The position numbers and the translations under genes are program-made. A stretch of DNA of 64,000 nucleotides, taken from NCBI GenBank assembly GCA_007693595.1, contig REDI01000050.1, positions 186,001-250,000 on the forward strand, written 5' to 3'. Below, one piece after another: positions 16,391 to 27,720 of this stretch (its first letter is position 1; every line of letters begins with the position of its first letter). The notes beneath the pieces were generated by a model. The model did not search any database, was not told where the DNA came from, and saw only the letters and a program-made list of their open reading frames with translations. This DNA comes from Deltaproteobacteria bacterium. GTDB taxonomy: Bacteria; Myxococcota_A; UBA796; GCA-2862545.

Positions 16391-16995
16391 CAGCCCCGGT
16401 TGGCTCCGAGGGGTGTCGGGGCGGGGCGGGTGTTGGCTTGGATCTCGGGTAAGGTCTCGAGGAACGGTTCGCGGTAGAAGCGCTCCCAGTTCTGCCAGGT
16501 GGTGAGGCGGGTGGGGTCGGTGACGCGGTCGACGAAGAGGATGCCGTCGAGGTGGTCGCACTCGTGCTGCCAGGTCCCGGCGGTCAGGCCGTGGGTCTGG
16601 ATCTCGTGGGTTTGGCCGTGGGGGTCGAGGTAGCGCACCGCGAGGTGCTGGTGCCGGGTGACGGGGCCGCGGAGGCCGGGCACCGAGAGGCAGCCCTCCC
16701 AGTTCTCGAAGGTCTGATCGCTCAGAGGGGTCAACACCGGGTTGATGGCGACGGTGAGAGGGATGCGAGGTTTGTAAGGATACCTTGGGTTATCGCCTAC
16801 CTCCAAGGCGGCGACTCGGACGGTCTCGCCGACTTGGATCGCGGCGAGGCCAGCGCCGTTGGCGTGGCGCATCGTGGCGACCAGATCCTCGATGAAGTCC
16901 CGCCACGCGGGCAGGGCGATCTCGTCGGGGCGTAGGGGGCGGGCGGACTTCCGTAGGGTGGGGTGTCCGATCTCCAGGATGGTGCGAAGTGGCAT
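16390..16995 (-). CDS. def: Peptide deformylase
   Basis: 201 residues with all three metal-site motifs: GAGLAAIQVG, EGCLSVPG (metal Cys) and the HExxH-type WQHECDHLDG (two metal His and the catalytic Glu). It removes the formyl group from the N-terminal methionine of new proteins at the ribosome. The length is about 20 residues above the usual, due to a basic, Pro-rich tail (TRPAPTPLGANRG) that runs up to the tandem repeat. No methionyl-tRNA formyltransferase gene is adjacent. Confidence 0.96.
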   Translation of the reverse strand: MPLRTILEIGHPTLRKSARPLRPDEIALPAWRDFIEDLVATMRHANGAGLAAIQVGETVRVAALEVGDNPRYPYKPRIPLTVAINPVLTPLSDQTFENWEGCLSVPGLRGPVTRHQHLAVRYLDPHGQTHEIQTHGLTAGTWQHECDHLDGILFVDRVTDPTRLTTWQNWERFYREPFLETLPEIQANTRPAPTPLGANRG

Positions 16996-17028
16996 GTCGT
17001 CTCCGTGGAAAAGCGGGCCAATCGTCGG

Positions 17029-17385
17029 CTATGGGGTTCGCCACGCCGGCTCGCTCCAGCCGATGGCGCGGTAGGACGCGCAGCTCGGTTCGAGGTTGAG
17101 CGCCTCGACGTGCGCGAGACAAGCCTCGGCGAGAGCCCGATCGCCCTCTCGTCGCAGCGGGGAGTGCGAACTCCGTGCCAGGCGCCGTTGACTCCAGATC
17201 CAAGTCTGGCATGACGCGGCGAAGGCTTCGGCGCTGCCCCACCGGCTCTGCTCCCAGGTCAGCCCCTCCTCGACGAGGCACTGCTCCTGAAGAGGCTCTG
17301 CGACGTAGCAGAGCTCCGCGCAGGCGAGCTCCGCCTGGGGCACACAGCCGCTTAGGAGGATGAGCCAGGGTAGAGGAGTTTGCAT
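17029..17385 (-). CDS. Small Cys-rich lipoprotein
   Basis: 118 residues from the ATG at 17385; the frame is open further upstream but the signal sequence starts here. MQTPLPWLILLSGC is a lipoprotein signal peptide with Cys at residue 14. The mature part holds several more Cys (ACAELCYVAEPLQEQCL, ASCQTW, EACLAH, PSCASY), enough for three disulfides, and is mostly helical. No family recognised. It ends 33 bases from the def start on the same strand, so def could be read through from it. Confidence 0.75.
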   Translation of the reverse strand: MQTPLPWLILLSGCVPQAELACAELCYVAEPLQEQCLVEEGLTWEQSRWGSAEAFAASCQTWIWSQRRLARSSHSPLRREGDRALAEACLAHVEALNLEPSCASYRAIGWSEPAWRTP

Positions 17386-17462
17386 GGCTTCCGACTCACC
17401 CGGAACGACTTCGGTCGCAAGCCTTGTGGTCACTACCGCTCGGGGGTGGTAGAGAAGGCGCC

Positions 17463-18842
17463 GTGATTCATCGACTGCCCGCGTTGCTCTTAGGTCTGCT
17501 CGCGCCGCTCCTCGCGGTTGCGGGGGAGCCGGTGTTCCTCCCGGACTTCACGCCGACGACTACGTCGGACTTTAGCCTTGCCATGCTCCTGCAGCAGGCC
17601 GCGGTCGACGAGCTGAACAAGTCGGGCCATGTGGTGCTCCAGTCCGAAGCGGTCGAGTCCATCGTTGGGCCGACCTTCGGCTGCATCGACGATGCCGACT
17701 GTCCGATTCCCCAGCTCAAGCAGCTCCCCGCGCGGTTCGCGGTGGTCGTGGGGGTCCGGCGAACCAGCGGGGGCCGCATCATCACCGACATCGAACTGCA
17801 CGAGGTCGCGGCCGAAGCGGTCCTCGAGCGTCGAACGGTCGAGATCGTCGATGGCCGCGAGGGCTTGTTGGGGCGCGAGATCGCCGACATGGTCACGGAT
17901 CTGGCCAGCGTCATGGGGCCTGCGGATGGGTCTGCGCTCGTCAAGGCGGGCCGGATCCTCGCAGACTTTGAGGCGGCCTCTGCGCCCGCGCCTTCCAAGG
18001 AGCCCGCCGACACTCGCCCCGCCCGCCCTCGGCCCAACTCCGAACCCCTCAGCGACGACGCGCGGATCGAGCAAGCCCTCGACGAGACCGACTTCGAGCT
18101 GCGCCACCTAGAAGGCGTGCGGCAGCACTTCCTCGATCGGGATCTCGACATCCGAGACTGGAACTACCAATACGCCCCTCACGCAGGTCGAGTCATCATC
18201 GAGGTCCGAGGCGGCTTTGGGATCGGGGACGCCGATCGTATCGCCTTCGTCCGCACGCGCTACGACGATCAGGATCAGGAATTCCTCTGGTTCCTCGAAG
18301 GTCCCGCCCAGTCGCAGCGGCTCCGAGGGGAGCTCTACGTCGGCTATGCCCCGAGCGCTTGGGTCGACATCGGGGTCTTGATGGGGCTTCAGTACGGGGA
18401 GCGTGAGCTAAACTCGGGCTGGAACACCCCGGCCGAGTCCGACTCGGGCGTCGATCGGGCGCAGGCGGTGCAGTTCCACGTTCAGCCCAGAGTGCGCTTC
18501 TACCCCGTGCGCACCGGACCCTTCAAGCCATACCTCGTGGGAGGGGTCGATGTTCGCTTCTTCGACCGCTGGCGTCTCCGGCCTCCGCCGAACGTGCGCT
18601 ATCAGCCTCCTCCGGGGGGCGTGGCGGTCGGGCCTTCGGGTGGGCTGGGCTTCTTGATCGATCCGAGCCCGATCGTGGGCTTCTTCGTCGAGGGCACGAT
18701 CACCTCTCACCTCACCGAGCGCGGCTACTACTTCGAGTTTGAGCCTCCAAACCAGCCCGCGAACGCGGATGACCTCGTCGCGGGTCGCTACCCAGCAGGC
18801 TACTTGATCGTGCTCGCGGCCGGAGTGCAGTTCCGACTGTGA
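17463..18842 (+). CDS. Outer-membrane barrel-like protein coupled to mlaE
   Basis: 459 residues from GTG at 17463, with GAGAAGG five bases upstream. A signal peptide ends near LLAVAGE. Residues about 22-170 form an alpha/beta domain (PVFLPDF, VLQSEAVESIVG, FAVVVGVRRT) that recalls the TolB-N/CsgG-like fold. After a Pro-rich linker, residues about 235-459 have the alternating strands of an outer-membrane barrel (LYVGYAPSAWVDIGVLMGL, FKPYLVGGVDVRFF, LIVLAAGVQF). Its stop overlaps the ATG of mlaE (TGATG), so translation is coupled. A role in the lipid-transport system is inferred from position only. Confidence 0.82.
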   Translation: MIHRLPALLLGLLAPLLAVAGEPVFLPDFTPTTTSDFSLAMLLQQAAVDELNKSGHVVLQSEAVESIVGPTFGCIDDADCPIPQLKQLPARFAVVVGVRRTSGGRIITDIELHEVAAEAVLERRTVEIVDGREGLLGREIADMVTDLASVMGPADGSALVKAGRILADFEAASAPAPSKEPADTRPARPRPNSEPLSDDARIEQALDETDFELRHLEGVRQHFLDRDLDIRDWNYQYAPHAGRVIIEVRGGFGIGDADRIAFVRTRYDDQDQEFLWFLEGPAQSQRLRGELYVGYAPSAWVDIGVLMGLQYGERELNSGWNTPAESDSGVDRAQAVQFHVQPRVRFYPVRTGPFKPYLVGGVDVRFFDRWRLRPPPNVRYQPPPGGVAVGPSGGLGFLIDPSPIVGFFVEGTITSHLTERGYYFEFEPPNQPANADDLVAGRYPAGYLIVLAAGVQFRL

Positions 18843-19609
18843 TGGGGATCGTGCGCCAGGTAGGCCGCAACACGTTCGGCCTCATCGAAGAGTTCGGCCG
18901 CGTCTCCCGGGTCACAGGCCTGGGTGTTCTCAACATCCTGCTTCCCCCCTTTCGCTTTCGGCTCATCATCCGGCAGATGGCCTTCATCGGGGTGCAGAGC
19001 ATCCCGATCATCGCGCTGACGTCCTTCTTCACGGGGGCCGTGTTCACCCTGCAGTCCTTCCGGGCCTTCAGCCTGTTTGGGGCCGAGGGTTATGTTGGTG
19101 GAACTGTCGGAATCAGCTTGGCTAAAGAGCTGGGGCCGACCCTCACGGGCCTGCTCGTCGCCGGTCGCGCGGGCTCGGCGATGGCGGCGGAGATCGGCTC
19201 GATGCGGGTGAGTGAACAGATCGACGCCCTCGAGGCCATGGCGGTGGATCCCATCAACTTCCTGGTCAAGCCTCGCCTCGTCGCGGCCGTCCTCGTCACG
19301 CCGCTGCTGACCGCCATCTTCGTGGTCGTCGGGGTCTTCGGAAGCTGGGTGGTCGGGACCTTCGTTCTGGGCATGGACTGGCCCATGTTCTCGGTACGTC
19401 TTCGGCAGTGGGTCGACTGGGAGGATGTCGGAGGAGGCCTTCTTAAGGGCGCGGTCTTCGGCGCGATTATCGCGATCGTGGCCTGCTATAAGGGCCTGTA
19501 TACCACGGGTGGCGCCAAAGGGGTCGGGATCGCCACGACGACCAGCGTGGTCGTCGCGAGCGTGACGCTGCTCGTCAGCAACTACTTCATGTCGGCCCTG
19601 CTGCCATGA
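18842..19609 (+). CDS. mlaE: MlaE-type ABC transporter permease (phospholipid transport)
   Basis: 255 residues. It shows the MlaE family traits: an amphipathic N-terminal segment, five or so membrane helices, and the conserved stretch AKELGPTLTGLLVAGRAG followed by AAEIGSMRVSEQIDALEAM. MlaE is the inner-membrane permease of the MCE/Mla system that moves lipids between membranes. The ATG at 18842 overlaps the upstream stop by one base; a GTG three bases earlier is also possible. It overlaps mlaF by four bases (ATGA). Confidence 0.94.
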   Translation: MGIVRQVGRNTFGLIEEFGRVSRVTGLGVLNILLPPFRFRLIIRQMAFIGVQSIPIIALTSFFTGAVFTLQSFRAFSLFGAEGYVGGTVGISLAKELGPTLTGLLVAGRAGSAMAAEIGSMRVSEQIDALEAMAVDPINFLVKPRLVAAVLVTPLLTAIFVVVGVFGSWVVGTFVLGMDWPMFSVRLRQWVDWEDVGGGLLKGAVFGAIIAIVACYKGLYTTGGAKGVGIATTTSVVVASVTLLVSNYFMSALLP

Positions 19610-20526
19610 CGTCCACCGAGCCCGTCCCTGGGTCCGGTCCCGAGACGGCCCCCGATGACCGCCCGCCCTCCCAGGGGGGGCGGAGCGCTCTCGTCGAAGA
19701 AGGGGCAGGGGTGGTCGAGGTCGATCCCGATCATTCCGGCGTGCATGAGCTGAGCTGTGCCGTCACGGGCGCCCCGATCGTGATCCGATACGCCGACGTC
19801 CACAAGGCCTTTGGCACCTTCAAGGTGCTGCGCGGCCTCAACCTGGCGATCCCAGAGGGAAAGATCACCGCGATCATCGGTCGTTCGGGCACGGGAAAGT
19901 CCGTGACCATCAAGCACGTCATGGGCCTCCTTCGCCCTGACCGAGGGCGGATCTGGGTGGGGCCTGACGAGCTCACCGCCATGCCCGACCGTCGCCTTCG
20001 TGCGGTCCGAAACCGCTTCGGACTGGTCTTTCAGAACGCAGCCCTCTTCGACTCCATGACCGTCTTCGAGAACGTGGCCTTCCCGCTGGTCGAGCATGGA
20101 CGAGACAGCCGCGCTCAGGTGAGGAAGAAGGTAGGCCAACTCTTAGCCCAGGTGGGGCTGTCGGGCTCCGACGACAAGGTCCCAAGCGAGCTCTCGGGAG
20201 GAATGCGCAAGCGGGTAGGGCTCGCTCGGGCGCTGATCCGCGATCCGGCGTTTCTCTTTTATGATGAGCCCACCACGGGCTTGGATCCGATCCTCGCCGC
20301 CGCCATGGACGAGCTCATCGTGCAGACCCAAAACGCGCGCCCTGGGATCACGAGCGTCGTGATCAGCCACGATATGTCGGCCGTCCTCCGTACCGCGGAC
20401 AAGATCTGCATGATCGTGGATGGGGTGGTCCTGCATCAAGGGCCGCCGTCCTACTTCGTTCAGAGCACCGACCCGCTCGTACGTCAGTTCGTCGAAGGAA
20501 ACGTCGACGGGCCCATGAAGGTCTGA
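19606..20526 (+). CDS. mlaF: MlaF-type ABC transporter ATPase
   Basis: 306 residues. The ABC motifs are complete: Walker A GRSGTGKS, Q-loop VFQNAALFDSM, signature LSGGMRKRVGLARAL, Walker B FLFYDEPTTGLDP and H-loop VISHDM. About 60 residues of acidic, low-complexity N-terminus precede the usual start of the domain, and the ATG is fixed by the four-base overlap with mlaE. It powers the MlaE permease. A shorter start further in, near the IVIRYADVHKAF stretch, would fit the family length but lacks a clear ribosome site. Confidence 0.94.
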   Translation: MTSTEPVPGSGPETAPDDRPPSQGGRSALVEEGAGVVEVDPDHSGVHELSCAVTGAPIVIRYADVHKAFGTFKVLRGLNLAIPEGKITAIIGRSGTGKSVTIKHVMGLLRPDRGRIWVGPDELTAMPDRRLRAVRNRFGLVFQNAALFDSMTVFENVAFPLVEHGRDSRAQVRKKVGQLLAQVGLSGSDDKVPSELSGGMRKRVGLARALIRDPAFLFYDEPTTGLDPILAAAMDELIVQTQNARPGITSVVISHDMSAVLRTADKICMIVDGVVLHQGPPSYFVQSTDPLVRQFVEGNVDGPMKV

Positions 20527-20683
20527 GGGTCCCCCGCGCAGCGCGAGTCCGACGCCTCACCCTCGAAGGGTCTGCGACCCAGCGTCGCCTTGTGCTGGAT
20601 CATCTGGGGCTAAGGTCCGGCCTCGGTCGCCGAGCCCGCCAGAGCGGTGTTGGCGCAAGCCGGGCGTCCAGTCTTGCGTTAGC

Positions 20684-22216
20684 ATGCCGGGCATGGCTGG
20701 TCGGTTCAACGATGAGTTCAAGGTCGGGCTGTTCGTCATCGTCGTTATCGCGGCGTTGGTGGGGGTATATTTCTTTACCTACGACGGTCTTTTCGCCGGG
20801 CCTGGCACCTACTCGGTCACGCTCCGGGCCCCGCGAGCCGATGGCTTGAACCAAGGCACTGCGGTCAAGCTCGCTGGGGTCAACATCGGCAGTGTCCGTC
20901 GGATCGGTCTCGCGGGCGGCGAGGCCGAGGTGGAGCTCATCCTCGACAAGCGCTACCAGCTCCCGATCGACAGTATCGCCGAGCTCAAGGCTACGGGTTT
21001 GCTGGGGGATACCTTCGTCATGGTGACCCTCGGCGATGACGAGATGGCCTTCCTTCAAGACGGGGATCGGATCCGTTTTGGGCGTGCGGCGGGCGATCTC
21101 GACAACATCACCCGTCAGATCGAGGAGGTCTCTACCGACGTCGCTGCGATCACCAAGGTCCTCCGTGAGATGGTCGAGGATCGACAGAATCGCGACAACG
21201 TCGAGGCCACCCTTGAGAACACCAGCGCCCTCACCGAGGAGCTCCGCCGCATGGCCGAGAGCAACCAGCGCGACATTCGAGCGATCGTTCAGAGCATCCG
21301 TCGGCTATCCGAGTCCCTCGAAGGGGTCGTCGAAGAGACCGGGCGCGACCTCGACGAAGAGTTCGACAAGATCAAGCTCGCCACCGACACACTTCAAGAG
21401 AGCCTCGACAATATGTCGTCGATCACGGGCAAGGTCGATCGAGGCGAAGGCACCGTCGGCGCTCTGATCAACGAACGCGACACCGTCGACTCCATCAACG
21501 ACGCCTTCGATGGCGTGACCGAGATCGTCGAGAGCTGGACCGGCCTTCAGGCGGATGTCTACAACTGGAACCGCTTCTACTTTGGCACCAACCCCTCGCG
21601 GGGGCCTGGGGGCGTGGCCCTCACCGATGAGATGGCGCGCGAGCTCTTTCCGCCGTTTGGCGACAACCGCTACAACATGATCTCGGGGCACGCCATCGGG
21701 GTTGACCTTCGTCCCCAAGAAGACTTCTGGTACACCTTCGAGCTCATCGCTCACCCCATCGGGAGCATCACTCACAACGAGTACCAACTCCCTTCGCGCT
21801 TTGGCGGTGGCGAGAGTACCTTCTTCCAAGAGTGGCGCGTAACTCAGGCCTTCCGGTACTCTTTCATGATCAATAAGCGCTGGTACGACTTCGCCTTCCG
21901 TGTCGGCGTCAAGGAGAGCAGCGGTGGAGCGGGGCTGACCTACTTCGCGGCCCAGGATCGGCTCCAGTTCCACGCCGATCTCTTCGACTGGACCTACGGC
22001 GGCTACCCTGCCATCAATGATCCCGATCTACTCGGGTTCAACACGCGCTTTCTCGTCCGCTACGAACCCCGCCGCGGTCTCTTCTTCGAGGCTGGTACCG
22101 AGAACATCGTGCCCGGTCTTCGATATGGCTACTTTACGGGTTTCGCAGGTGCGGGCTTCCACTTCAACGACAATGACATCAAGCTGCTCCTCGCTGCGTT
22201 GCCGATCGGGCGATAG
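20684..22216 (+). CDS. mlaD: MCE-domain protein (MlaD-like) with barrel-like C-terminal domain
   Basis: 510 residues. One membrane helix at about 13-32 (FKVGLFVIVVIAALVGVYFF) is followed by a single MCE domain (about 40-118; GTAVKLAGVNIGSVRRIGL, LKATGLLGDTFV). Residues about 125-270 are helical and likely coiled coil. The last 200 residues are beta-rich with aromatic girdles (DFWYTFELIAHPIG, RWYDFAFRVGVKES, GLFFEAGTENIVPGL), like an outer-membrane barrel. E. coli MlaD is about 180 residues, so the tail is a large addition. The gene follows mlaF after 157 bases. It may bridge inner and outer membranes; that is inference. Confidence 0.88.
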   Translation: MPGMAGRFNDEFKVGLFVIVVIAALVGVYFFTYDGLFAGPGTYSVTLRAPRADGLNQGTAVKLAGVNIGSVRRIGLAGGEAEVELILDKRYQLPIDSIAELKATGLLGDTFVMVTLGDDEMAFLQDGDRIRFGRAAGDLDNITRQIEEVSTDVAAITKVLREMVEDRQNRDNVEATLENTSALTEELRRMAESNQRDIRAIVQSIRRLSESLEGVVEETGRDLDEEFDKIKLATDTLQESLDNMSSITGKVDRGEGTVGALINERDTVDSINDAFDGVTEIVESWTGLQADVYNWNRFYFGTNPSRGPGGVALTDEMARELFPPFGDNRYNMISGHAIGVDLRPQEDFWYTFELIAHPIGSITHNEYQLPSRFGGGESTFFQEWRVTQAFRYSFMINKRWYDFAFRVGVKESSGGAGLTYFAAQDRLQFHADLFDWTYGGYPAINDPDLLGFNTRFLVRYEPRRGLFFEAGTENIVPGLRYGYFTGFAGAGFHFNDNDIKLLLAALPIGR

Positions 22217-22392: not shown

Positions 22393-25300
22393 GTGGGCGG
22401 AAAGAACGAGAACGATCCGATCGCCGACTTCTTCGGCGAAGATACCGACTGGCTCGACGACGAGACGGGGAGCGTGCCCAAACAGCCCGATCCCGCGCCC
22501 ACGTTACCGCCCCAACCCGCACCCGAGCTCAAGGGAGCGGCACCAGAGCGCAGGGAGCCTCCGGTGCGCCCGCCTGTCCCTCCACCGCCTCCTCCTCCGC
22601 TCAAGCCCGCCACCGAGGCCTTCCGAGCGGCCCCGACCGAGCCGCGGGGCGTGACCCTCGAAGAGCGGCAGCCGCCCTCCAAGGACCCAGCCCCTCACAA
22701 CGTGGCAGACGACACCGTTGGCTCCTTCTTGGAGCCTGTTTCCGAGGGCCCCCCCGTCTCGGCGCCCGACGATCAAGCCACGCTCACCGACGACGAGCCC
22801 GGTCCCTTCCCCGACGTGGTGGTCGAAGAAGATCGCGCCGAAGACATTGCTGATCTATCGAATCCTGGTTCCCCTTCGCCCCTCTCCCGCGACGAGCCCT
22901 CCGAAGAGATCGTGATCTCGGCCCAGCCGGTCGAGGCGCCCGAGCCCGAGCCCGACGAGGGCCCGGCCCCGGTCCGTGACGACCGAGTCTCCTGGTCCCC
23001 CTCCGACGAAGAGACCACCTGGCGCGAGCTCTGTGAGCCGGTGGAGCGACTCGCGAGATCGGTGAGCGATGAGCAGGTCGCCGCGGCTTTGCTCATCGAG
23101 GCGGCTCGGATCCGTCGTGACCGCCTTGGGGAGCCCGACGAGGCCCTGAGCCTCCTCGAGCAGGCCAAGGAGAAGGGGGCCACCGGGCCTGAGTTCCACG
23201 CCCTTCTCTCCGAGACGGCGGTTCGTCTGGCCGACTATGACTACGCGGCGAGGGCCATGGCCGATCGCGCCGAGAGGCTCACCGGCGCCGCCGCGGCCGA
23301 GGCCTGGCAAGCGGCGGGCATGATCGCCCGGCGACGACTGCGCGACTTGGAGATGTCTGAGCGTCACCTGCGACGCGCCGTCAAGGCCGATCCGTCGGAC
23401 TATGCCTCTCTCTCGCTCCTTCGGGACCAACTCGCGGTCAAGGGGCGAGAGGCCGAGCGGGCCGAGGTGCTCCAGGACCTGAGCAAGCTGGCATCGGGTC
23501 GGGTCGCGGCCGAGGCCTGGTGGGAGCTCGGGCGCCTCTACCTGGGACTCGACGAGATTAACGCCGCCCGAGCGGCCTTCGAGCAGGGGCGGGCCGCGGA
23601 TCCCTCCCAGGCGCAGTGCTTCTTGTCGCTGCAGACCCTCTACCAACACCTGGGCGACGACATGGCCCTCGGCCAGCTCTACATGGTTGAGAGCAAACGA
23701 GCTGAGGGACCGGATGCGGGCCAGTGGGCGATCGAGGCCGCCCGAGCCTTCGTCGACGCCCGCGAGGTTGACGCGGCGGACGAGGCCTTCGGCATCGCTG
23801 TCGAGCACGGCCACCCCTTGGCGCGGCGGGAGCAGCAGGCCTGGTTCGTCGCGACCCAGCGCCACAGGGACTACGAGCGTGCCCTGGTCGCCGAAATCGA
23901 GGAGCTCGAAGGCGAAGAAGGGGTCGCTCACGCCTGGTATCGCCTGGGCTGGCTCCGCGAGCATGAGCTCGAAGACCTTCAGGGGGCACTGACCGCCTAC
24001 CGCAGCGCGGTCGACCTCGACGCGGCCGCAGGACCTGCGGCCGAGTCGGTCGCGAGGGTCCTCTTGGCGGATGGGCAGTACGAAGAGCTCATCAAGTTCT
24101 GGCAACGGCGGGTCGAAGCCGCCGACGATCCCGACCTTCGGTGCTCGGTGCTGCTCCGTATGGCCGAGATCTCCGAGGCCCACCTCAGCGATGATCACCG
24201 GGCGCGGGCCTACCTTGAGCAGCTCTTGGGGATCAAGCCCGAGGAAAGAACGGCGCTCGAGTCGCTGCGGCGGATCTACCGTCGCCTCAAGTCATGGGCG
24301 GAGTTGGCTGTCGTCTACGAGACCCTCGCCTCCATCGAGTCCGCGCCCGAGGCACGGGCTCAACACCTCGCCCGTGCCGGCAACGTCTGGCGGTACGAAG
24401 CCAAGGATCCTGCGCAGGCGCGCGACTGTTACGGGCGGGCTCTCGAGCTTCAGCCGGGTCACGCCATCGCCCTCGACGAGCAGGTGGATCTTCTCGAAGA
24501 CGCGCAAGAGTGGGAGGAGCAGGCCAGGGTTCTCCGATCGGCGGCAGACGCCGTTCTCCTCGACGACGACAAGGTTCGACTGAGCTATCGATCGGGGCGA
24601 GTCTGGCTCGACCGGGTGGGGGATCCCCAGCGTGCTGGCGAGGCGTTCCGTAACTGCCTCCGCTACAATAGCGGCTTTCTTCCAGCCCTGGGCATGCTCA
24701 AGCAGATCGCCGCACGATCCGACCAAGGCCAAGAGATCTACCGGCTCTACCTTCAGCAAGCCCAAGCCCTCGAAGAACCCAGTGCACGCCACTGGCGTCT
24801 GCTCGCGGCAGCGAACCTGGCGGATCGGCTCACGGGGGGGGACCCCGGCCGAGATCTCGGCGCGATCTTGGAGCGCGACCCCACCCATCCCGGCGCGGTC
24901 GCAGCGCAGGAGCTGCGCTTGCTGAGCCTGGGCGCAAAGGTCGGGCTCCTCAACCTCTATCGACGGGTCTTGCAGTCGACCCCCGACAGCCCGCGTCGAG
25001 TCGTCTTGAACGCCCGGGTGGCGGGCTTGTTCGAAGCCCTCGGCGACGACGCTGGCTCCCACGCGCCACTCACCGAGGCGATCCAGAGCGCGGCCGAGGG
25101 AACCCCCTTTCGCGCTTTGGCTCGTCTCGCCGAGAGCCGCCGGTTGTGGGACCTCGCCGTCCACGCACTCGAGAAGTCGGACTCCGCGGAGGACCGGCTG
25201 GAGCGGGCGCGTCTACTCACGGTACGCCTCAAGCGTCCCGACGAGGCGCTCGAGCTCTACAAGGCCCTGCTGAGCCTCCCCGAGACGGCGCTCGGTGCCG

Positions 25301-27720
25301 CGCTCGGTACGGCAGCGTTGGCCCAGAGAACCGGCGATACCGAGTTGCTTGCTCGTGCGCACGGGATCCTCTCGGAGCACGTGGACGCCGAGCCGGTCAG
25401 CGCGGCGCACGCGCTGTGGTCTGGACAGCTCGCCGAGGCAGCGGGCCTCCACGACGAAGCCCTCACCCAGTACCATCGCGCCCTCGAGCTTCGTCCGGTC
25501 TCGGTCGCAGCCTTCGATGGGGCGCGGCGTCTGCTCTTGAACGCGTCCGATGCCGAGGGCCTCAAGGAGCTCTGGTCCAAGGCGCGCCCGGACCAGGCCT
25601 ATGGCTTGGCGCTGGATCTAGAGCAGGTCGAGGCCTACGAGGCGGCGGTCGAGGTCTGGAGGTCCTTGGACCGAGGGGACACGTCCAATCTCGGGATCTG
25701 GTCGCAGCTCGAGGTCGCCTTGTCGCGGGTCGACGCGTGGCGCGAGGTCTACGACATCGCCACCCGGCGCGCCGAGACGGTCGTCGATGAGGACGAGCGC
25801 GAGGTGATCCACGCCAAGCGTCGCTGGCTCCTCGCGCAGAAGCTGGCCGAGACCGACGAGGCCTGGTCTCTCTACCAGTCGCTCCACGAAGAGAACTCCG
25901 ATGACCGCGACGTGACCTCGGCCTTGGCGCGGATCGCGATGGCCCGCGGCGAGACCCGGATGGCGATCGGCTTTCTCGAGAACCTCGCCCAGGGGGCGTC
26001 GGATCCCAAGGAATCTGCTGCGCTTCAAGTCCGCATCGCTGAGGTCCATGAACACGCTCAGAACGTCGCCGATGCGCGTCAGGCGCTCTTCGATGCGCTC
26101 GACTACGTGCCCGACTATCAGCCGGCCCTCGAGGGCCTCAAGAAGCTGGCAGCGACGCAGGACGACTGGAAGGCCATGCTCGATGTGCTCAAGCTGGAGC
26201 AGGGGCGCGTCAAGGGGGATCGCAAGATCGAAGTCCTGCGCGAGATCGCTCGCCTCAATGCTGAGCACGTCGATGACGACGGGGTGGTCCTCGAGGCCTG
26301 GCGCTCGGTGCTCGACGCGGCCCCTGACGATGTCGAGGCGCTACGAGCCAGTTTGGAGCTCGCCGAGAAGAAGAAGAGCTGGGAATCTTATCTGGATCTC
26401 GCCGTCCATCTCGCGGAGCATCTCTCCGGGGCAGAACGAACCGAGGTCCTGGGGCGGGCGGGGCTCGTAGGTCTCGACGAGCTGGAACGGGCCTCGAGTG
26501 TCGACCTGCTCGAGCGAGCGATCTCCGAGGGGCCCTCCTACGGACCCGCCGCGGATCGCCTCGTCTCGTGGTACCGAGGCCGTGGCGAGAGAGATCAGGT
26601 GGTCCGCGTCCTGTCCTCGCAGGCCGACGGGGTCGCCGATCCCGAAAAGAAGGGATCCTTGTACGCGGATGCTGCGGAGATCCTCCAGGAGGCGCGGCAG
26701 ACGGATAAGGCGATCGAGCTATACAAAAAGGCGATCCACATCCGGCCGGACGAGCCCAGAGCGCTCAGGTATCTGGCGGATCATCTCTTTGAGCGGGGCG
26801 AGATCGCCGAAGCCTTACCTGTCTTCGAGCGCCTCGCACCGACGGTCGCCGAGGGGCAGGATCTCGACGACTTCGACGTGCGGATGGAGCTCTCGACCTT
26901 CTTCCACCGGCTGGCTCGCATGTTGATCGACAAGGATCGTGCGGGCGAGGCCCTGAGCTACGCGGAGAGAGCGCTCGAGTTCAATCCCTCGCATCAGCCC
27001 ACCCTCGAGATGGCCGCCCCGTTGCTGATCGCCAATGAGTCTTGGGATCGAGCCTACGATGTGCTCCGACAGCTCCTCCAGCTCTCGGGAGGCCAAGGTG
27101 AGCCCAAAAAGGTCGCGCGCATGTACGCCCAACTCGGGCTTGTGGAGCGGGCTCTGGGCCGCTCCGACAAGGCGCGCAAGCACTTCGATAAAGCGCTCTC
27201 GCGGGTGCCGCACCACGTCGATGCGCTCAAAGGGCTCGCCCTGCTCCACGAAGACCACCAAGAGTGGACGCAGCTCCTCGATATCTACAACGGTGTGATC
27301 GGACACGCGACCGAGCCCTCCGATGTGACGGCCGCTTACCTGACCAAGGGGCGGATCCTCGACGATCAGATGGGTCGGGCCGATAAGGCTGCCCAGCACT
27401 ACGAGCGGAGCCTCGCGTACGACGCGAACCAGCCGCAGGTCCTCCTCCGATTGGCCGAGCTGGCTTGGCGACGGAACGACTGGGACGAGACGGCGGCTCA
27501 GGCCCAGCGAGGGCTTGACCTGATCTTCAACCCGAGCCCGCTCCGCGCCGATCTCTGGCTCTGCCTGGCTGCGGCCCGTCACGGGCTGGGACAGCGGGCT
27601 CGGGCCCATCAGGCCCTCGACAGGGCGCGGTCCGACGCGCCGGATCTCGACCTTGGCGAGCAGCCTCTGGTGGACCTTGAGGCCCTTCGAGTTCGCGTGC
27701 GGAGCAGGTTACCCAAGTAG
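22393..27720 (+). CDS. Giant TPR-repeat protein
   Basis: 1775 residues from GTG. The first 200 are Pro-, Glu- and Asp-rich low complexity, starting NDPIADFFGEDTDWLDD. The rest is a run of degenerate and canonical tetratricopeptide repeats, for example CYGRALELQPGHAIALDEQ, YRKAIHIRPDEP-like KAIELYKKAIHIRPDEPRAL, and YAERALEFNPSHQPTLEM. No signal peptide or membrane helix is visible, so it is probably cytoplasmic and acts as a scaffold. Very large TPR proteins occur in Myxococcota polarity and motility systems, but nothing here ties it to one. The next gene, 48 bases on, also has TPR-like repeats. Confidence 0.88.
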   Translation: MGGKNENDPIADFFGEDTDWLDDETGSVPKQPDPAPTLPPQPAPELKGAAPERREPPVRPPVPPPPPPPLKPATEAFRAAPTEPRGVTLEERQPPSKDPAPHNVADDTVGSFLEPVSEGPPVSAPDDQATLTDDEPGPFPDVVVEEDRAEDIADLSNPGSPSPLSRDEPSEEIVISAQPVEAPEPEPDEGPAPVRDDRVSWSPSDEETTWRELCEPVERLARSVSDEQVAAALLIEAARIRRDRLGEPDEALSLLEQAKEKGATGPEFHALLSETAVRLADYDYAARAMADRAERLTGAAAAEAWQAAGMIARRRLRDLEMSERHLRRAVKADPSDYASLSLLRDQLAVKGREAERAEVLQDLSKLASGRVAAEAWWELGRLYLGLDEINAARAAFEQGRAADPSQAQCFLSLQTLYQHLGDDMALGQLYMVESKRAEGPDAGQWAIEAARAFVDAREVDAADEAFGIAVEHGHPLARREQQAWFVATQRHRDYERALVAEIEELEGEEGVAHAWYRLGWLREHELEDLQGALTAYRSAVDLDAAAGPAAESVARVLLADGQYEELIKFWQRRVEAADDPDLRCSVLLRMAEISEAHLSDDHRARAYLEQLLGIKPEERTALESLRRIYRRLKSWAELAVVYETLASIESAPEARAQHLARAGNVWRYEAKDPAQARDCYGRALELQPGHAIALDEQVDLLEDAQEWEEQARVLRSAADAVLLDDDKVRLSYRSGRVWLDRVGDPQRAGEAFRNCLRYNSGFLPALGMLKQIAARSDQGQEIYRLYLQQAQALEEPSARHWRLLAAANLADRLTGGDPGRDLGAILERDPTHPGAVAAQELRLLSLGAKVGLLNLYRRVLQSTPDSPRRVVLNARVAGLFEALGDDAGSHAPLTEAIQSAAEGTPFRALARLAESRRLWDLAVHALEKSDSAEDRLERARLLTVRLKRPDEALELYKALLSLPETALGAALGTAALAQRTGDTELLARAHGILSEHVDAEPVSAAHALWSGQLAEAAGLHDEALTQYHRALELRPVSVAAFDGARRLLLNASDAEGLKELWSKARPDQAYGLALDLEQVEAYEAAVEVWRSLDRGDTSNLGIWSQLEVALSRVDAWREVYDIATRRAETVVDEDEREVIHAKRRWLLAQKLAETDEAWSLYQSLHEENSDDRDVTSALARIAMARGETRMAIGFLENLAQGASDPKESAALQVRIAEVHEHAQNVADARQALFDALDYVPDYQPALEGLKKLAATQDDWKAMLDVLKLEQGRVKGDRKIEVLREIARLNAEHVDDDGVVLEAWRSVLDAAPDDVEALRASLELAEKKKSWESYLDLAVHLAEHLSGAERTEVLGRAGLVGLDELERASSVDLLERAISEGPSYGPAADRLVSWYRGRGERDQVVRVLSSQADGVADPEKKGSLYADAAEILQEARQTDKAIELYKKAIHIRPDEPRALRYLADHLFERGEIAEALPVFERLAPTVAEGQDLDDFDVRMELSTFFHRLARMLIDKDRAGEALSYAERALEFNPSHQPTLEMAAPLLIANESWDRAYDVLRQLLQLSGGQGEPKKVARMYAQLGLVERALGRSDKARKHFDKALSRVPHHVDALKGLALLHEDHQEWTQLLDIYNGVIGHATEPSDVTAAYLTKGRILDDQMGRADKAAQHYERSLAYDANQPQVLLRLAELAWRRNDWDETAAQAQRGLDLIFNPSPLRADLWLCLAAARHGLGQRARAHQALDRARSDAPDLDLGEQPLVDLEALRVRVRSRLPK

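Follow-up and report, generated by a model that had tools for sequence, protein, structure and literature searches.

A long-form MlaD transporter locus and an overlapping gene for a predicted outer-membrane protein in a deltaproteobacterial genome

Genes at the locus and their predicted products

The window, a stretch of 64,000 nucleotides of deltaproteobacterial DNA, carries the genes of an MlaEFD lipid transporter, preceded by a gene that we call X and followed by a gene for a very long TPR-repeat protein. The features, all on the forward strand, are:

17463-18842, + strand: gene X, 459-aa predicted outer-membrane protein, GTG start, TGA stop (open reading frame, AlphaFold2 model, fold match)
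17520-17978, + strand: X residues 20-172, TolB-N-like alpha/beta domain (fold match over residues 20-152 to TolB chains, Z about 11-12)
18174-18839, + strand: X residues 238-459, predicted 8-strand OmpA/OprF/OmpW-like barrel (model strands 244-458, Z 13-15, alternating hydropathy)
18839-18844, + strand: X/mlaE junction, GTGATG (direct read)
18842-19609, + strand: mlaE, lipid ABC-transporter permease (PF02405, E = 5.2e-78; TIGR00056 over its cut-off)
19606-20526, + strand: mlaF, ATPase (ABC_tran), overlapping mlaE by 4 nt
20684-22216, + strand: mlaD, long form, 510 aa (PF02470, E = 1.8e-16; model)
21548-22165, + strand: mlaD residues 289-494, ten predicted strands, likely a barrel (low-confidence model, alternating hydropathy, conserved in alignment A5)
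22393-27720, + strand: 1775-aa TPR-repeat protein, the steadiest neighbour of mlaD within the class

At the junction between X and mlaE (CGACTGTGATGGGG), the TGA of X at 18840-18842 and the ATG of mlaE at 18842-18844 have one A in common. An earlier note on this DNA had stated that the stop codon of a barrel-like gene overlaps the ATG of mlaE, and direct reading of the letters confirms it. Start codons were assigned by inspection; a GTG at 18839 lies in the frame of mlaE and is an alternative start, so that the two genes overlap by 1 or 4 nt. Our own simple gene caller finds overlaps in 8 of the 39 co-directional neighbour pairs of the window, mlaE/mlaF included, and the overlap alone is therefore unremarkable. 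It is a real arrangement, inherited or repeated, and not a rare kind of junction. A scan of positions 16900-20700 found no promoter and a single terminator-like site, which is below the shuffle mean of 1.8.

The N-terminus of X is signal-like, and an in-frame TTG at 17424 lies upstream of the GTG at 17463. The AlphaFold2 model (9-row alignment A6; mean pLDDT 73.4, pTM 0.50) places an alpha/beta domain at about residues 23-172, followed by a poorly ordered helical linker and by eight strands between residues 244 and 458. When this model was compared with the PDB by Foldseek, OmpA was the best match (E = 5e-6), followed by TolB (E = 1e-4). A second structure aligner matched residues 238-459 to OprF (Z 15.2), OmpW (15.0) and OmpA (14.2), and the N-terminal domain (residues 15-152) to TolB chains (Z 10.8-11.8), FlgT (11.4), PelC (9.1) and LpoB (9.0). 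Hydropathy alternates along the predicted barrel strands (p = 0.0008 against within-strand shuffles; p = 0.41 for three strands of the N-terminal domain as a control), on a scale in which we had raised the values of W and Y. The modelling thus gives good support to the earlier description of X as a protein of the outer-membrane-barrel type.

Membership of X in a curated family was rejected, as none of the Pfam or NCBIfam models reached its cut-off on X. Pfam OMP_b-brl matches weakly (E = 0.028; 15 bits against a cut-off of 28.7), and the best E-value for a Pfam barrel among 14 members of the X family is 0.0062. Compared with the sequences of solved structures, a profile built from 14 X proteins had no match, and a literature search, which was not exhaustive, found nothing on X. 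The predicted barrel has the same 8-strand fold as those of OmpA, OprF and OmpW, from which X differs in its low sequence identity (12-17%) and in a periplasmic domain that is N-terminal and of the TolB-N type. That domain shares its fold (residues 20-152) with the N-terminal domain of TolB and with LpoB, PelC and FlgT; unlike these, it carries two cysteines, C74 and C80, that are invariant in alignment A1. In place of the beta-propeller of TolB, the model of X has the helical linker and the eight strands of a membrane barrel.

For the product of mlaF the best NCBIfam model is MlaF, below its cut-off, and the permease encoded by mlaE is the only one of its family in the window's genome. The model of MlaD is of low confidence (mean pLDDT 49, alignment of 5 rows). 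It shows a transmembrane helix at residues 5-33, an MCE domain at 42-132, helices at 139-284 and ten strands at 289-494. Hydropathy alternation in these C-terminal strands exceeds that in all of 5000 shuffles, and the region is kept across 10 relatives (alignment A5). As a query, the MlaD of the window matches 178 of 188 genomes of the phylum; in at least 34 genomes outside its own class the match reaches the barrel region.

This anatomy has a published counterpart. A report on Veillonella parvula (PMC10665443) describes a long MlaD that ends in a ten-strand C-terminal barrel, fractionates with the outer membrane and is proposed to act as a trans-envelope bridge; such long MlaD proteins are, according to its authors, widespread in diderms. 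The minimal MlaEFD set described there, mlaE, mlaF and a long mlaD, is the set found in the window, and the predicted order of transmembrane helix, MCE domain, long helices and strand-rich C-terminus is the same, with ten predicted strands against ten published (PMC10665443). Neither MlaA nor MlaC was matched in any of the 21 genomes of the window's family that were searched (each was matched in 2 of 14 control genomes), which is a further likeness to the Veillonella-type system. The window differs in having an unrelated outer-membrane-type gene, X, upstream of and overlapping mlaE, and its MlaD barrel is a low-confidence prediction. The MlaEFD of the window thus looks like the known Veillonella-type trans-envelope system and adds a lineage to those in which MlaEFD looks trans-envelope. 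Because a long MlaD with a barrel-like C-terminal region matches the Veillonella anatomy, the outer-membrane end of the lipid path would already be encoded in mlaD. The earlier suggestion that X itself forms that end was rejected as the main reading, on the evidence of this region of MlaD together with the co-occurrence, epimerase and purE data that follow.

Gene order and co-occurrence in related genomes

The genomes compared are mostly MAGs, and many are incomplete. The family of the window comprises 21 of them, and X is present in 16. The mlaE orthologue accompanies it in ten, and in all ten at most one gene separates the two. X stands directly before mlaE on the same strand in six (the window's own genome, G000, with G043, G053, G188, G189 and G193). 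An alanine racemase gene lies between them in G029 and a convergent epimerase gene in G196, while G014 and G068 have the pair head to head. Actual overlap is seen in the window, G043 and G053; the latter two are separate species of a different genus, and their overlap is -4 nt by the homology-fitting start. Gaps of 8-19 nt are found in G188 and G189 by their starts. Same-strand contact is kept in four genera, among which X is only about 35-40% identical to that of the window. Conservation of the X/mlaE neighbourhood, which the earlier note had put forward as the check on its proposal, is therefore supported: a lack of any such conservation in related genomes, which by the note would have refuted it, was not the outcome.

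Six genomes of the family carry X without such an mlaE. In four of these (G190, G191, G192 and G194) X is immediately followed by the TPR gene, G096 has X, then an epimerase gene, then the TPR gene and no mla, and in G195, from the window's own genus, the contig stops inside X. Conversely, mlaEFD and the TPR gene occur without an adjoining X in G019, G117, G048, G038 and G151.

In the sister family f4 the partner of X is a different gene. X lies directly before purE on the same strand in all 14 loci fetched, from among the 21 f4 genomes with both X and mlaE, and purE is followed by purK (checked with Pfam in two loci). X and mlaE are on different contigs in this family, and X stands apart from the TPR gene and mlaD. 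An in-frame purE start overlaps the stop of X in 7 of the 14 loci (G136, G165, G108, G104, G058, G179 and G199); two of these, G165 and G108, have CTGTGATGG at the junction, identical to the X/mlaE junction of the window. X overlaps mlaE in the window and purE in f4, and it therefore tends to overlap whichever gene comes next. Several f4 X proteins contain long, low-complexity linkers rich in Lys and Glu and reach a total of 850-960 aa.

A convergent sugar-nucleotide epimerase gene, its class assigned without any model over cut-off, faces X in 11 loci (G096, G196, G213, G087, G024, G077, G214, G009, G211, G212 and G216), which come from the window's family, from three more families of its order and from one additional family of the class. 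In G213, from another family, the order is X, convergent epimerase, mlaE, mlaF, mlaD, TPR; in G038 and G170 the epimerase precedes mlaEFD and the TPR gene, and X is missing. Because the epimerase separates X from mlaE in G196 and G213 and faces X in all 11 loci, the junction in the window looks derived. Most simply, X, epimerase, mlaEFD and TPR would have formed an old cluster, and the window's lineage would have lost the epimerase from it. A clean single origin of the junction was not upheld: in the X tree, on an unresolved backbone and with the X of G096 truncated, G096 is the sister (95/95) of a clade that contains five of the six same-strand junctions, and the window falls outside it. This hints at two origins, a point that the TPR tree does not settle.

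Among 63 genomes of the order, X and mlaE occur together in 34, X alone in 17, mlaE alone in 6 and neither in 6, in a table tallied by hand. X was counted from 150 bits upwards on profile A1, with partial matches included, and mlaE from 330 bits upwards, the next one down scoring 242. The presence or absence of X does not follow that of the transporter (Fisher p = 0.33). Genomes with X alone often keep more distant mlaE paralogues, although a search for MlaE at 1e-40 gave no match in the X-carrying genomes G096, G192, G195 and G210. X was found in 30 of 38 genomes of its own class and in 1 of 150 others, that match being weak. As a predicted outer-membrane protein it is class-restricted and uncharacterised. 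Many genomes of the order also contain a second X-like family, which is more distant (E about 1e-24 and weaker).

Relation of X to the transporter

We believe it likely, with a probability of roughly 0.7, that the window encodes an MlaEFD of a known kind and a separate outer-membrane protein, X, which are neighbours by descent and overlap as a result of compaction. MlaE and MlaF would work in the inner membrane, from where a hexameric long MlaD would cross the periplasm and insert into the outer membrane through a C-terminal barrel of its own; to judge from domain order and the Veillonella system, no further outer-membrane port would be needed. X would be anchored in the outer membrane by its 8-strand barrel, with its TolB-N-like domain hanging in the periplasm. 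To judge from the fold, this domain would most likely bind another envelope protein or one linked to peptidoglycan, as in TolB and LpoB. X and mlaE would owe their proximity to descent from the old cluster, in which the convergent gene between them would have meant two separate transcripts. Once the epimerase gene had been lost, as in the window, X would abut mlaE and its stop codon could overlap the next start. Such an overlap may couple translation, and would reflect compaction of the genome rather than a shared machine.

The earlier note had gone further, proposing that X and MlaE act in one machine. Its reading of X as a barrel and of the X/mlaE neighbourhood as kept has stood; the single machine, like the role of X as outer-membrane end, has not, given that X is kept without mlaEFD, mlaEFD is kept without X, a convergent gene lies between them elsewhere and a junction of the same kind is formed with purE. 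Stated in full, that alternative makes X a dedicated part of MlaEFD which forms or gates the end of the machine in the outer membrane and whose translation is tied to that of MlaE to keep the stoichiometry. It would accommodate the overlap in three genomes, the adjacency in all ten own-family genomes with both genes and the barrel type of X, yet we consider it improbable when MlaD keeps a barrel-like region of its own beside X, when 17 genomes have X without this mlaE and 6 this mlaE without X, and when the two genes are divergent in G014 and G068 and parted by a convergent gene in G196 and G213. A long MlaD is, moreover, found phylum-wide, whereas X has one weak match outside its class, and in f4 a like junction joins X to purE. 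An 8-strand barrel is by itself too narrow to serve as a lipid pore, which also tells against X as the outer-membrane end.

A looser association, in which envelope building would be a common role of X, MlaEFD, the epimerase and the TPR protein while X stands outside the transporter, is unlikely rather than far-fetched: the four occur together across the window's family and in G213, and X, epimerase and TPR go together in G096 and in members of four other families (G087, G024, G077, G214 and G009), but in f4 X keeps company with purE and purK, away from the TPR gene and mlaD, and these purine genes argue that neighbours need not share a function. X might also have become a cofactor of the trans-envelope MlaEFD at the outer membrane in this lineage, its TolB-N-like domain docking onto the helical tube of MlaD and regulating or energising lipid transfer. 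We regard this as a long shot; if true, X would provide a Tol-like input into the Mla bridge, and the ratio of the two would be fixed through the overlap of X and mlaE in translation.

What speaks against the separateness of X that we favour is the constancy of its adjacency to mlaE in the ten own-family genomes and the same-strand contact in four genera. X could also serve the distant mlaE paralogues kept in genomes that have X alone. X genes run into a lipid-permease gene in one family and into a purine gene in the sister family, and a stop/start overlap with a membrane transporter gene is accordingly poor evidence that two products work together.

Judged by gene order, the TPR protein would be the first candidate for a partner of MlaEFD, being better linked to the transporter than X. 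Its gene follows mlaD in 24 of the 27 own-class loci fetched, and in the remaining three (G188, G193 and G196) the contig stops 0.6 to 2.6 kb past mlaD. The protein has no membrane-like segment (the highest 19-residue hydropathy is 1.3), and its N-terminus is acidic and disordered, with a motif resembling DFFGxDxDWLDDE. In G029 and in the f4 loci L082-L090, mlaD and the TPR gene lie apart from mlaE and mlaF, so that MlaEFD is split over two places. Among the records for these loci, a MAG entry titled Klebsiella pneumoniae (L106) shares the G043 contig and its title looks wrong; L104, titled Rhodobacterales, matches G193 in the same way.
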